A DNA stretch of 23,969 nucleotides from a virus, in IMG/VR virus record IMGVR_UViG_3300033571_005114, positions 1 to 23,969 of that record. The stretch is one strand, 5' to 3'. Below, one piece after another: positions 13,434 through 23,723 of this stretch (positions are counted from its first letter, which is position 1; each line of letters opens with the position of its first letter). The notes under the pieces are model-generated. The model worked only from the letters and a program-made list of their open reading frames with translations. It was not told the origin of the DNA and ran no database searches. A program made the position numbers and the translations under genes.

Positions 13434-15509
13434 TTACATGAAAAATTGTCCCTTCCCTATAGCAATTTTTTTATTTGAGGTAATACCATTGTGGAAAAAT
13501 TCATGGTCCAAGAAGGTTTTTACCTTCTCTTCTACCTGTACTTCATACTTACGCATCTCTTCCTTTTGATAAAGTGCTAGCATTAAAGCCATTACACGGT
13601 CAAAGTTACCATCAGGATTATATAAAATCAACTCTTTAAGCAAAGGTACGCATCTAATCTTATGTGAAACCTTAACATCACCCTCATATGTTCTTCTAAG
13701 CCAGCTGTTAATCAACCCTTCGCCATACCTTTTGATTTCCATAGGCATGTGCATACCATAACCTCTGTCTACAGTACTAGATGCTACTACATCTTTTACC
13801 AGTTTAGGTTGCTTAGCAAGTAAATAAAGGGCTCCACATGACTCAAAGTAGGTAAACACACCTTTTTTCTCATTTTCATACAAGGCCAAAGCATTATAGT
13901 AAACAAGTAATCTTCTACAATTCTCATAAAAGTCATTTGCCGTCTCAGGCCTTCCGCTATATTCAGCTACTATTCTATTTGTCAGATTATCTAGCAGGAT
14001 GATAGAACCCAAAGACCCAGAATTAGACTTATCATGGTCATAAGGGTCAATACCTGCGATGTAACGTCCCCAAGGTATATGGCCTTCATCAGACTTAATT
14101 GGATGTTCATATATAACAACTGAGCCTTCTGTATTAGCTTCTGCTTTAAGTGGGAAATCATATATAGGTCTGTTTTTAGCATTATTCCTCCACTCAACTT
14201 CTCCCTCAGGTGTAATAGCTATATCTCCTACCCAGTCTGCATCTGCAAGTTTAGTAGTCTCAATATGTGCAAGAGTATATTGTAGATCTTTAAGAGGGAA
14301 TATATTATTAGTCTTAGAAAGAAATACCTCACTAGGTACAATCGGATTATACACTACATACTCATCATATGCAGACGCATCCTTAGCAAGCTTCTTCTTC
14401 TCTCTCTGATCTTCTTCTCCAGCTTTAGCTAATGAAAAGTTCGTATTACCAAACTCATCCTTATAATTAATCTTGGTATAAGTAGCAGGAAAGAATAAAG
14501 CTATCTTTCCTCTGTTCTCATAAATATCCTCAAATACCAGACAATCATACGCCTCTGGGTCGTAGAACATCTTTTGAGCTGCGAGGGTGCCACCGCCAAC
14601 CATGTCACCACCAGTACCAATATACAAAGTGGAACCAAATTTATAATTATTAAGGCGTTGAGTATTTTCGTCAGCAAAGTGTGACTCAATAAGATTTTCC
14701 CAAAGACCAATTTCTTCTCCTATTTTAACTGTATTACGACCACCCACACCTGCAAGTGGTTTATCCTTGTAAACCCTAGGCTTAAAGCAACTTCTGGTAC
14801 CTACCATTTGCCATTTACCACCTACCTTTTTCTTGTAGTAGTTCTCTGCTTTCTTACCAATAGCCCAAGTTCCTGCCAAAGTCTTAAGAAATGGTGCTGG
14901 ATAGTATACACCATTGACTTCCATACCACCAGGATAATTATTAAGTACGTCTTGAATCTTTGTAATAAGGTCATTAACATAAGGCGAGTTATAAGCAGAC
15001 AATAAAATCTCTGCAGTTTCTTTTGGTACCTCTCCAGGAGTATACTCTTTCTGCCCGTCTGTCAAATACTCATGAGCTGCTACATTAGCTCCCCAATAAG
15101 ACTTACCCCAACCACGAGGACCCAAGACAAGCAAATTCTGAGCCTCATTATTATACAAAGGTTTACCTAAATCTTCTTTCTGCTTCTGCCTAAGGAAAGA
15201 CCTAATATCATCTACATCTCCTACCTTCTCAAAGCCAGACAATCCTCTAGCTTCAATCCAATAGTAAGCTAAGTCCCAAACATAATCTAGATCCCAAGGC
15301 CTATCCTTCTTTCTACTTTTCTTGTCTCCAAGAACTATAGTAGCATAGTTAATGTAATGATATAACTGGGGAGGGCACCATACTCCATTTATCCAAACAC
15401 CTTCAATAACCTTCTTTTTTTCAGACCTCCAGAAATCCAGATAGCCCTGACTAAGAGGGTGCAGTTTAGGTACAGATGGTAATGCAAATGCCTTCCTATT
15501 GTCCCACAT
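13434..15509 (-). CDS. terL: Terminase large subunit (691 aa)
   Basis: This is the ATPase-nuclease that packages the genome through the portal. The Walker A motif GPRGWGKS is at residues 130-137. An acidic segment, VKIGEEIG (about 261-268), is the likely Walker B with catalytic glutamate, and GSTLYIGTGGD (about 292-302) fits the coupling motif. The C-terminal RNase H-like nuclease has YIAGIDPYDHD (metal-binding aspartate near 488), FESCG (about 555-559) and DRVMALMLAL (aspartate near 637). The length is normal for crAss-like terminases. The start overlaps the upstream stop as TAATG. No intein or frameshift is seen, although inteins and introns occur in terL of some phages. Confidence 0.95.
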   Translation of the reverse strand: MWDNRKAFALPSVPKLHPLSQGYLDFWRSEKKKVIEGVWINGVWCPPQLYHYINYATIVLGDKKSRKKDRPWDLDYVWDLAYYWIEARGLSGFEKVGDVDDIRSFLRQKQKEDLGKPLYNNEAQNLLVLGPRGWGKSYWGANVAAHEYLTDGQKEYTPGEVPKETAEILLSAYNSPYVNDLITKIQDVLNNYPGGMEVNGVYYPAPFLKTLAGTWAIGKKAENYYKKKVGGKWQMVGTRSCFKPRVYKDKPLAGVGGRNTVKIGEEIGLWENLIESHFADENTQRLNNYKFGSTLYIGTGGDMVGGGTLAAQKMFYDPEAYDCLVFEDIYENRGKIALFFPATYTKINYKDEFGNTNFSLAKAGEEDQREKKKLAKDASAYDEYVVYNPIVPSEVFLSKTNNIFPLKDLQYTLAHIETTKLADADWVGDIAITPEGEVEWRNNAKNRPIYDFPLKAEANTEGSVVIYEHPIKSDEGHIPWGRYIAGIDPYDHDKSNSGSLGSIILLDNLTNRIVAEYSGRPETANDFYENCRRLLVYYNALALYENEKKGVFTYFESCGALYLLAKQPKLVKDVVASSTVDRGYGMHMPMEIKRYGEGLINSWLRRTYEGDVKVSHKIRCVPLLKELILYNPDGNFDRVMALMLALYQKEEMRKYEVQVEEKVKTFLDHEFFHNGITSNKKIAIGKGQFFM

Positions 15510-17654: not shown

Positions 17655-17841
17655 ACTTTAACTTTCTTAACGGTACAACAAATTTTCCCATTTTAGGAAC
17701 CATAATATTATGCCCCTTTTCTTCACGCATAGTACTTACAATCATCTCAAAGACAGACCTAAACGCCAGTTCTACATCCTTTTTAGAAATTCCTGATTTC
17801 CTAGCCACATCCTCATATACTTCCTTCAGCTCTAACTTCAT
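17536..17841 (-). CDS. HU/IHF-like DNA-bending protein (101 aa)
   Basis: Residues 1-60 follow the HU/IHF layout. There is a helix pair (LKEVYEDVARKSGISKKDVELAFRSVFEMIVSTMRE) and then a strand pair (NIMVPKMGKFVVPLRK), where the usual 'GFGxF' turn appears as MGKF. The long DNA-clasping arm motif is shortened. The C-terminus is Gly/Glu/Asp-rich and is encoded within the overlap with the zinc-ribbon gene, so it may be little constrained. IHF-like subunits are a recurring component of crAss-like genomes. A role in DNA bending during packaging, replication or transcription is likely but not shown. It overlaps the upstream gene by ATGA. Confidence 0.8.
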   Translation of the reverse strand: MKLELKEVYEDVARKSGISKKDVELAFRSVFEMIVSTMREEKGHNIMVPKMGKFVVPLRKLKYVNTERYVQQLSRYSGRVEQPDSKGSGDRGEGFEEADGM

Positions 17842-18188
17842 TTCTCAAACTCAAATGCTACAAATAACCTAAACTTTCCATCCTTAGGATAATTAGTCAG
17901 CTTAGGGTTTAACCCATTAGGCTCTATAAGTCCCTTATCTTTTAATCCTTGCAGCAACTTCTCAAATAACCTAGCATTAATCTTCATCTTCTTACGAATA
18001 GCCTCCAAAGTGTTCTTTGAAAGTAAGTATTCCTCTAGCACATGAGTAGGATAATCCTTATGTGCAAAGTGCAAAGTCAATAAAGCAGCTAGTATATCAA
18101 TCTCTCCCTTACTAAGATGTAGTACAGGATTTAGCCAATTTAAATAAGTCACAAAGAACTTATTTCTAGGCGTTTTGATAGTTATCAT
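17838..18188 (-). CDS. Winged-helix-like protein, first gene of the packaging operon (116 aa)
   Basis: The predicted fold has helices around LSKGEIDILAALLTLHF and NTLEAIRKKMKINARLFEKLLQGLKDKGLIEPNG, followed by a beta hairpin with FRLFVAFEFE. The middle resembles the recognition helix, turn and wing of a winged-helix DNA-binding domain (ARLFEKLLQGLKDKGLI). The ATG lies only four bases after a near-perfect -7 box, so the message may be nearly leaderless. As first gene of a 17-kb operon it could be a regulator of late genes. It could also be a structural protein with a helical fold; the motif is moderate. Confidence 0.65.
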   Translation of the reverse strand: MITIKTPRNKFFVTYLNWLNPVLHLSKGEIDILAALLTLHFAHKDYPTHVLEEYLLSKNTLEAIRKKMKINARLFEKLLQGLKDKGLIEPNGLNPKLTNYPKDGKFRLFVAFEFEK

Positions 18189-18192
18189 GCAC

Positions 18193-18224
18193 CAAATATA
18201 AAGGACTTCCTACATTAAAACAAA
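18193..18224 (-). promoter_or_regulatory. Bacteroidetes-type promoter of the packaging/structural operon
   Basis: On the minus strand, TTTG (18224-18221), a 20-base spacer and TATATTTG (18200-18193) match the consensus TTTG-N19-21-TAnnTTTG exactly. The start site is expected about 5 bases after the -7 box, at or next to the ATG at 18188. This predicts a leaderless or nearly leaderless transcript. The -33 box lies in the U-tract of the terminator of the upstream noncoding RNA. Confidence 0.8.
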
Positions 18225-18255
18225 AGAAAAAGCCCAACTCATTGAGAGTCAGGCT
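18225..18255 (-). terminator. Intrinsic terminator of the structured RNA
   Basis: On the minus strand AGCCUGACUC (18255-18246) pairs over 10 bp, with two G-U wobbles, with GAGUUGGGCU (18240-18231) across a 5-base loop. UUUUUCUUUU follows at once. It ends the noncoding RNA just before the promoter of the packaging operon and would insulate the two units. Confidence 0.85.
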
Positions 18256-18612
18256 AATTCTTGGGTTGATGAGTATCTTTAGAACCTAATCTATAAGCAA
18301 CACCTTTGTCCTAAATTAGAAAAATCTACCTTTTCTAACTTTATTATTTTTGCACACTTATGCCCTTGGGATTTTCATCCTTTAAGCACTTGCGTGCATC
18401 ATTTTACTGTCTTTCCTTCAAGTCGTCTGAGCCTTTCAGCTTTTACCGTTATACTGGAGGCATCTCTATCAACCCTTAGCCTTTAACCCAGTCAAGAAGC
18501 GTATGAACAGTAAGGGTTTTTCACTTGTATTCCAAGGTTTATTACCCCCAAGAGAGTCTGCCTTTGTACTCCAAGTGTGCAGGAGTAGGTCTAACAGACG
18601 AGTCTTGTATTA

Positions 18613-18636
18613 AAAAGTAGCTTACGGGCTACTTTT
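18613..18636 (-). promoter_or_regulatory. Hairpin with U-run near the 5' end of the structured RNA
   Basis: AAAAGUAGC (18636-18628) and GCUACUUUU (18621-18613) form a perfect 9-bp stem with a 6-base loop. A short run of U and then UAAUAC follows. It starts roughly 10 bases after the predicted transcription start. Because it is palindromic it could also end plus-strand transcription. It may be a 5' cap helix of the RNA or an attenuator. Confidence 0.5.
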
Positions 18637-18651
18637 GCATGACATGCGGGG

Positions 18652-18683
18652 CAAATATAATACTCATTTTTACAAACACCAAA
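18652..18683 (-). promoter_or_regulatory. Bacteroidetes-type promoter of the structured RNA
   Basis: On the minus strand, TTTG (18683-18680), exactly 20 spacer bases and TATATTTG (18659-18652) match the host vegetative consensus fully. This is the same spacing and the same -7 sequence as the promoter of the packaging operon. It predicts a start near 18647. Confidence 0.85.
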
Positions 18684-18920: not shown

Positions 18921-19022
18921 AATTTTTTTTATTTTTTATGGGAATTAGAGAGTTACCCACCCCACCAAAGGGCACCCCTTCCTTATAATAGCGGAATATA
19001 TCCCCCGCATAAAACTATCCAA

Positions 19023-19763: not shown

Positions 19764-19838
19764 GGTCCTGTAGGTAAACGGATATACCAGTTGCCTTCTA
19801 AGCATCTATTCTACGTTCGATTCGTAGCAGGACCACCA
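19764..19838 (+). tRNA. tRNA-Arg (anticodon UCU)
   Basis: Acceptor GGTCCTG pairs perfectly with CAGGACC. The D-stem GGTA/TACC, the anticodon loop CTTCTAA giving anticodon TCT, and the T-arm CTACG-TTCGATT-CGTAG are all present. Discriminator A and an encoded CCA follow at 19835-19838. The anticodon stem has one mismatch. It reads AGA, the preferred arginine codon of an AT-rich phage. It stands alone, 3 kb away from the other tRNA genes. Confidence 0.92.
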
Positions 19839-22945: not shown

Positions 22946-23019
22946 GGGCCTTTAGCTCAGTAGGTTAGAGCGACAGACTCATAATCTGTATGTCGTAGGT
23001 TCAATCCCTACAGGGCCCA
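22946..23019 (+). tRNA. tRNA-Met or tRNA-Ile2 (anticodon CAU)
   Basis: Acceptor GGGCCTT/AGGGCCC, D-stem GCTC/GAGC, anticodon arm ACAGA-CTCATAA-TCTGT and T-arm GTAGG-TTCAATC-CCTAC are all complete, with discriminator A. The anticodon is CAU. The first pair is G-C, so it is not an initiator. Elongator Met versus Ile (lysidine-modified) cannot be decided by eye. It is the first of a three-gene tRNA cluster. CCA is not encoded. Confidence 0.93.
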
Positions 23020-23024
23020 CTATT

Positions 23025-23109
23025 GCCTAAGTGGTGGAATTGGTAGACACGAGGGACTTAAAATCCCTTTCTACAAAATAGAGTGCAGGTTCAACTCCTG
23101 TCTTAGGTA
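23025..23109 (+). tRNA. tRNA-Leu (anticodon UAA)
   Basis: Acceptor GCCTAAG/CTTAGGT (with one G-U), the D-arm GTGG...ACAC region, and anticodon arm AGGGA-CTTAAAA-TCCCT giving anticodon TAA are present. There is a long class II variable arm around CTACAAAATAGAG and T-arm GCAGG-TTCAACT-CCTGT. The discriminator is A. It reads UUA, a codon favoured in AT-rich genomes. Confidence 0.92.
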
Positions 23110-23114
23110 CAAAT

Positions 23115-23219: not shown

Positions 23220-23229
23220 GACAAGATGT

Positions 23230-23270
23230 ATGTAGGAGGTAGAAATATCTCCTACATCTCTTGTTTTACT
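23230..23270 (+). terminator. Terminator of the tRNA cluster, GNRA-capped
   Basis: ATGTAGGAGGTA (23230-23241) pairs with TATCTCCTACAT (23246-23257) over 12 bp with one G-U, capped by a GAAA tetraloop. CTCTTGTTTT follows. The hairpin lies 10 bases after the last tRNA-like gene and just before the HNH promoter. Confidence 0.75.
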
Positions 23271-23290
23271 AACATAGGTTCGTATATTTG
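23260..23290 (+). promoter_or_regulatory. Bacteroidetes-type promoter of the HNH gene
   Basis: TATATTTG (23283-23290) is a perfect -7 box and CTTG (23260-23263) is a three-of-four -33 box, with 19 bases between. The start is expected about 5 bases after the -7 box, leaving a leader of roughly 15 bases to the ATG at 23310. This is the only clear host-type promoter on the plus strand. Confidence 0.65.
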
Positions 23291-23309
23291 TGACTACAAA
23301 TGTATAACT

Positions 23310-23723
23310 ATGGAAAGATTCTTTAATAAAATTAATAAGACAGATACTTGTTGGTTATGGACTGCAAGTTTGAGAGGTAAAACAGGATATGGCGCATTCA
23401 AACTTAATGGTAAAGTTATAGATGCTCATAGAATATCTTATGAATTGCATAATGGTATTATTCCTGAAGGAATGTATGTATGTCACACCTGTGATACTAG
23501 AAAATGTGTAAACCCTAATCATTTATTTTTAGGTTCTCCTAAAGATAATTGGCAAGATGGGTTTGATAAAGAAAGAATTAAATTATCAGGAGGAATAGAT
23601 GCTAAAAAACTTAAAAAACATCCAAGTAGAGGCGCTTATTTAAGGGGATGTAGATGTAATGAATGTAAAGCTATCAATAATATGATGGTTAAAAGATATA
23701 GGGAAGGATTAAAAAGTAAATAA
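23310..23723 (+). CDS. HNH homing-type endonuclease (137 aa)
   Basis: The HNH fold is readable in order. CWLWTASLRGKTGYGAFKLNGKVIDAHRISYELHNG includes H40 of the AHR motif. PEGMYVCHTCDTRKCVNPNHLFLG includes the zinc-binding and catalytic residues (C58, H59, C61, C66, N68-N70, H71), and the KDN tail follows. A second cysteine group at the C-terminus (GCRCNEC, residues 113-119) may bind another zinc and DNA. I use the ATG at 23310, which follows the promoter and gives the usual MERFFNKI start. The reading from 23226 would run through the terminator. Such free-standing enzymes cut near their own insertion site and spread; here it lies behind a tRNA cluster. Confidence 0.9.
   Translation: MERFFNKINKTDTCWLWTASLRGKTGYGAFKLNGKVIDAHRISYELHNGIIPEGMYVCHTCDTRKCVNPNHLFLGSPKDNWQDGFDKERIKLSGGIDAKKLKKHPSRGAYLRGCRCNECKAINNMMVKRYREGLKSK

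Follow-up and report, generated by a model that had tools for sequence, protein, structure and literature searches.

Homologues in related phages, compensatory base changes among them and the lack of a match in Rfam support the initial annotation of a structured noncoding RNA of unknown family in a crAss-like phage. The sequence analyzed, a 23,969-base virus record (the window), is a fragment of such a phage, and the RNA would occupy about 425 nt of it. Many related phages have the RNA at the corresponding genome position, with its structure better conserved than its sequence. CrAss-like phages rank with the most abundant of known viruses. As far as searched, the RNA family is confined to them, and in the published literature searched we found no structured noncoding RNA of crAss-like phages other than tRNA. 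Sequence comparison suggests that the family is new and that its kind, the large structured noncoding RNAs of phages, is known.

An RNA unit ahead of the packaging operon

The gene for the terminase large subunit (13434..15509, minus strand) places the phage among the crAss-like phages. The terminase and the portal protein of the window match PHROG families 6681 and 6547, and the closest protein to the terminase is that of Cellulophaga phage phi14:2 (order Crassvirales), at 34% identity. Packaging and structural genes occupy the minus strand, and beyond position 19,000 the genes mostly run in the opposite direction. The structured-RNA unit is located on the minus strand, between this point of divergence and the packaging operon. 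On the far side of the RNA from that operon, the window contains a tRNA-Arg gene (19764-19838), and farther along the other arm an HNH endonuclease gene (23226-23723) adjoins two tRNA genes (22946-23110).

The consensus promoter and the 10-bp terminator that the initial annotation had claimed are both present. Upstream of the RNA is a Bacteroidetes-type promoter, TTTG-N20-TATATTTG (18683-18652, minus strand; consensus from PMC7366714), and at its end is an intrinsic terminator (18222..18255, minus strand), formed by a 10-pair stem at 18255-18231 followed by a T-run. A transcript with its start set by this promoter and its end by this terminator would span 18222..18646 of the minus strand. The pattern TTTG-N18-21-TANNTTTG occurs twice in the window, before the RNA and before the next operon, relative to a chance mean of 0.8, which makes the count weak by itself. 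The second occurrence (18193..18224, minus strand) would be a separate promoter of the downstream operon, whose first gene (17838..18188, minus strand) encodes a 116-aa protein with no match in Pfam or PHROG. Taken together, the RNA's own promoter and terminator and the promoter of the next operon argue for separate transcription of the RNA.

These elements recur in the relatives described below (class I and class II). TAnnTTTG is found about 6 to 90 bases before the RNA in nearly all of them, and T-runs follow its 3′ end in most. The L016/L020 group of class I lacks a visible T-run or clear terminator, and transcription of the RNA might continue into the operon in these phages. The description of the stretch as gene-free also held: the longest forward ORF within the RNA is 19 aa, and no ORF within it is conserved.

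Predicted structure and covariation in class I

Homologous loci were found in phages with terminases 84-100% identical to that of the window and among the loci from a motif scan (class I). The RNA is present in those relatives whose contigs extend to its position. L023 and L029 show no RNA within 1.7 and 1.2 kb, respectively, beyond the gene for the 116-aa protein; these stretches are possibly too short, since inserted genes in L010 and L011 shift the RNA by ~1.7 kb upstream. With near-identical copies removed, the class I set comprises 12 distinct sequences besides the window (L004, L036, L005, L044, L020, L041, L049, L016, L018, L010, L011, and L008 with L028).

The predicted structure, given here 5′ to 3′ on the minus strand with helix names of our own (our P1 and P2 differ from those of the initial annotation), begins with hairpin HP1 (18613..18636), which has a conserved CCGUAA loop and a covarying stem (GUAGC, GAAGC, AGGUC). 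The 5′ strands of P1 (CAAGA, 18603..18607) and P2 (GUCUGUU, 18593..18599) pair with 18549-18553 and 18556-18562, respectively, so that the two 3′ strands together fill 18549..18562; every P2 pair is kept in every sequence. Between the strands of P2 is hairpin H3 (UACUCC...GGAGUA, 18567..18587), the loop of which is the 5′ strand of a long-range pseudoknot. H4 (18513..18548) is a two-part hairpin with an (R)AAUA loop, its covariation strong in the inner helix and weak in the outer.

A junction of four helices, Po, Pa, Pb, and Pc, follows. Po pairs UACUGU (18507..18512) with ACAGUA (18405..18410) and has 11 distinct helix sequences in 11 phages, with 66 of 66 pairs kept. The Pa 5′ strand CUUC (18496..18499), partner of 18416-18419, is followed by a conserved UUG linker. 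Pb (18453..18492), an ACUGG/CCAGU helix, bears the highly conserved cap AAAGGCUAAGGGUUGAUAGAGAUGCCU (18484-18458), in which the segment GGCUAAGGGUUGAUAGAGAUGCC is invariant in ten class I sequences, whereas neighboring Po differs in nearly every phage. Pc (18430..18441) is an AGCU-GAAA-GGCU hairpin with two-sided changes in 4 of 4 pairs. The conserved strand CAGACGACUU and the Pa 3′ strand GAAG complete the junction (18416..18429), and GACRACUU within this region is invariant in class II as well. Beyond it, hand comparison of the sequences supports a two-part hairpin, H5 (18360..18389), with an outer GUGCUU/GGGCAU helix and an inner GGAU-GAAA-AUCC helix.

The proposed 9-bp pseudoknot is present in the window, where UGCACACUU in the H3 loop (18581-18573) can pair with AAGUGUGCA (18359-18351), and its strands change together in the relatives: ACACUU/AAGUGU becomes GCACUU/AAGUGC in L016 and L049, and ACACCU/AGGUGU in L010. 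At least five of the six pairs form in 10 of 10 class I sequences checked; the pseudoknot was not identified in L008. Considered alone, it is matched by 329 of 5000 shuffles, a moderate level of statistical support that reflects the invariance of four of the six pairs. In L036, the 3′ strand GAAGUGUGCAAA occurs twice in the 3′ part of the RNA, and the L016/L049 group has a second AAGUG copy in the RNA.

Other elements of the initial annotation fared unevenly. The two-part hairpin H3 with its pseudoknot loop, corresponding to our P2 and H3, is strongly supported by covariation. The helix named P1 there is most likely the cap loop GGGUUGAUaGAG paired with CUCAUCAACCC (18273-18263), a strand just 5′ of the terminator. 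This pairing exists in the near clade (the window, L004, L005/L044, and more weakly L036) and, in a compensated version, in L008/L028; it is absent from the other class I groups and from class II. The helix named P2, reconstructed as AUGCCU/GGGCAU, found no support: the partner of GGGCAU is the 5′ strand of H5, and the two change together. Two hairpins with GNRA caps had also been proposed. The one capped by GCAA (GCAC-GCAA-GUGC) is not conserved; for the GAAA cap, the Pc helix is kept with a variable loop, and the inner helix of H5 is kept.

The strand CUCAUCAACCC (18263..18273, minus strand) bears on the idea that the RNA is a cis-acting leader of the structural arm, either a riboswitch-like attenuator or an antiterminator that alters the polymerase, as in phage HK022, where the put RNA makes it read through terminators. 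A strand that lies ahead of the terminator and pairs with the conserved cap loop, with compensation in L008, could couple the cap to termination, and the order of RNA, terminator, and long operon at a conserved place would suit a leader. However, the cap-tail pairing is limited to the groups named above, and the operon of the window has its own promoter after the terminator. The first downstream gene, which a riboswitch or attenuator would be expected to keep, also differs between lineages: it encodes 116 aa in the window, 109 and 403 aa in L010/L102, and 173 aa in L108. This variation argues against cis regulation of one gene, and we regard a leader as unlikely.

Compensatory changes were counted in two ways. 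Among the 11 helices listed by hand for class I, 41 of 53 pairs show two-sided changes. Because these strands were picked by hand, the window-derived structure was also counted on an unedited MAFFT alignment. There, 88.7% of cells pair, relative to 75.6% after shuffling, and the covariation score is 0.42, relative to 0.19 for shuffled alignments and at most 0.14 with the partners slid; these counts, like those for class II below, include alignment errors, as MAFFT misplaces Pb in L010/L011 and shifts it by one column in some class II sequences. Covariation extends to HP1, P1, P2, H3, H4, Po, Pa, Pb, and Pc and to the H3-loop pseudoknot. A covariance model, R2, built from the class I alignment without L008 and L028, detects these two over their full length at about E 1e-11.

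The minimum free energy of the window RNA (−126.2) is well below that of shuffled sequences (−101.0 ± 5.3; z −4.75). One class II sequence has a predicted fold that is not unusually stable (z −1.28), as might be expected if the conserved block were a DNA element or a chance fold instead of a functional RNA. Given the strong folding energy in the window and, for two alignments, pair-specific covariation that far exceeds both the shuffled and the slid controls, that explanation is extremely improbable.

Class II and comparison with known RNA families

The motif scan also reaches L043 and L048, two crAss-like phages that carry the core of the RNA and whose terminase shares only about 31% identity with that of the window. 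Their relatives have a shorter RNA of ~190 nt (class II), of which a second scan brought the total to about 20 distinct sequences; 18 of the 20 class II contigs encode a crAss-type terminase. Po, Pa, and Pb covary in class II, together with a pseudoknot in which the Pc position pairs with the 3′ end (score 0.636, relative to 0.233 shuffled), and GACRACUU and UUG are invariant. For L168, the 3′ strand of the pseudoknot was chosen wrongly by the automatic procedure, which took an earlier GGAAA, so that this row understates the pairing. In L116, a tRNA-Thr gene (2206-2279) directly precedes the class II RNA, apparently under a shared promoter.

The two classes have in common the UUG linker, the GACGACUU strand, the geometry of Pa, Pb, and Po, and the position in the genome. 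In L043, L048, and L108, 32 nt of the core (UUAAAGGCUAAGGGUUGAUAGAGAUGCCUCCA) are the same as in the window, and model R2, which was not trained on it, detects the L043-lineage core at about 1e-11. A model built from class II (R3) does not find class I; for this reason, we call the common origin of the two classes probable and no more on the strength of these sequences. The cap that L043/L108 share with the window may have been exchanged by recombination.

Neither class corresponds to a family in Rfam. The window RNA has no match at the gathering thresholds, and at E values up to 10 it gives only noise far below the cut-offs; class II gives nothing credible at gathering or permissive thresholds. 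The comparison with Rfam that had been proposed, including GOLLD, ROOL, and HEARO, thus left the RNA without a known family. The GOLLD covariance model (RF01998) does not match at its gathering threshold or at E up to 10, and neither does the ROOL model (RF03087) match. HEARO/omega RNA was set aside for want of an Rfam match and of an IscB/TnpB-like nuclease among the proteins scanned around the RNA; the HNH gene lies on the other arm, at a distance of about 4.5 kb. Group I and II introns were rejected because Rfam gave no match and because the RNA, which has a promoter and a terminator of its own, is located between genes; RNase P was likewise dropped.

The RNA resembles tmRNA in being a large, pseudoknotted noncoding RNA, but ARAGORN and Rfam find no tmRNA at its position, and it lacks tRNA-like ends and a tag reading frame. 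A genuine tmRNA gene is present in another crAss-like contig (L154:25-403, minus strand; 81.9 bits, gathering threshold 47), about 10 kb upstream of the terminase gene and on the other strand. ARAGORN also calls a tmRNA in phi14:2 (L105:4031-4500), with the unusual tag GSSVQKLAMVA, and this call is probably spurious.

A structured RNA partner of a Ro60 (TROVE) protein, such as a Y RNA or YrlA, is conceivable because a TROVE protein was reported among the early genes of crAss001 (PMC10136315). The TROVE domain (PF05731) was found in 0 of 39 crAss-like and related records, several of them fragments and the carriers of this RNA among them, while a positive control genome gave a match; a Y RNA was therefore not retained.

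GOLLD and ROOL are of comparable kind. GOLLD is phage-borne, large, elaborate, often near tRNA genes, and of unknown function, and ROOL is phage-borne and pseudoknotted, with no known protein partner (PMC12286853). Both form homo-oligomers (PMC12286853), and copies of the RNA described here might likewise assemble, RNA only, into a cage or another oligomer. It too is phage-borne, large, and pseudoknotted, and it is near tRNA genes, with tRNA-Arg in the window and tRNA-Thr directly before it in L116. Yet it is about half the length of GOLLD or less, has other helices, and has so far been seen only in crAss-like phages; it is also shorter than ROOL, and the abundance and the cage are features of ROOL, whereas the present RNA is known from sequence alone. 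Since class II is only about 190 nt, the models of GOLLD and ROOL do not match, and no oligomer interface was identified, we hold such an assembly to be distinctly unlikely.

Genomic position and possible roles

With few exceptions, the loci of both classes have upstream genes that run away from the RNA and downstream genes that run with it (gene calls in the relatives' loci are simple longest-ORF calls). The RNA thus has a constant position: it comes first in the arm of packaging and structural genes, where transcription diverges. Two contigs have further features upstream of the terminase gene: a cluster of 20 tRNA genes in the crAss-like phage contig L161 (1376-6093), and a GroEL-like chaperonin gene directly before the terminase gene in L095 (13005-14489); a GroEL gene is part of this operon in phi14:2 too.

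The exact class I motif has no match in 84,980 cellular species genomes, and the sole match of the exact class II motif in these genomes (L189) is inside a reading frame, with the rest of the RNA absent. Models R1 and R3 found nothing in 395 genomes of one Bacteroidota class, a search with stricter filters and no positive control. None of the three models gave a credible match in ten phage records, among which were phi14:2 and gut crAss phages; weak R3 matches in isolates were discarded as short fragments joined end to end. A blastn search of annotated phages and plasmids gave no match, and looser viral patterns produced false matches inside genes (L055-L057 and L069-L076). Many relatives of the class II phages, plus ten isolates or complete genomes, have no match, which indicates that the RNA is not universal in the order.

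Location beside the terminase operon raises the question of a packaging or virion RNA with a role comparable to that of the phi29 packaging RNA, also a noncoding phage RNA. In the loci examined, the RNA shares its strand with the packaging and structural genes and stands at the head of their arm, and the crAss-type terminases of the class II contigs fit the same idea. However, several kilobases separate the RNA from the terminase gene, and no copy is detectable in phages whose terminases are homologous. There is no sequence or structure match to the phi29 RNA, and phi29 is a different phage with a different terminase type; to our knowledge, the two RNAs do not resemble each other in size or structure. 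We consider a packaging role very unlikely.

The divergence of the arms also invites the view that the RNA is linked to an origin and primes or licenses replication there, as transcripts do in RNA II of ColE1 and the R-loop origins of T4. The minimum of cumulative GC skew is near the RNA in the two genomes examined, one of class I and one of class II. But skew follows gene direction and is confounded with transcription, and the common 3′ T-runs suggest termination and not extension. An origin-linked RNA is likewise unlikely on this evidence.

The joint reading that we prefer, with a chance that we put at about even, is that of a noncoding RNA of a new family, made by the host polymerase, closed into a compact form by its pseudoknot, and acting in trans through the Pb cap and junction. 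The virion polymerase of phi14:2 transcribes early genes (PMC10136315). Because that polymerase serves early genes and the promoter here is of host type, the structural arm would be left to the host RNA polymerase, which would transcribe the RNA during infection. HP1, P1/P2/H3, H4, the junction of Po, Pa, Pb, and Pc, and H5 would then fold into a compact particle, with the long-range pseudoknot closing the whole. Action in trans is suggested by the terminator, by the promoter that the operon has to itself, and by neighbor genes that change; the RNA would offer its Pb cap and its junction to a partner, either a protein or another RNA. The cap, invariant while the surrounding helices change, is probably the contact site. 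Such an RNA could serve as a scaffold or decoy for host takeover or late development. Against action in trans, the position of the RNA varies so little that a locus-bound role (origin, divergent promoters, or operon head) would fit too.

A bolder version, which we offer only tentatively, is that of a phage RNA family spread over distant crAss-like branches and made at the switch to structural genes, with a swappable Pb cap that would recognize a host factor conserved across hosts, for instance the ribosome or RNA polymerase. Lineages would exchange this cap, as suggested by the 32-nt identity between phages with such dissimilar terminases.

The RNA is a defined and testable object, for which there are now covariance models, a prediction of the secondary structure, and some 30 natural sequences. 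Strong selection on its structure across distant lineages, at the point where the two arms diverge, would point to a step in the life cycle of crAss-like phages that has yet to be described.
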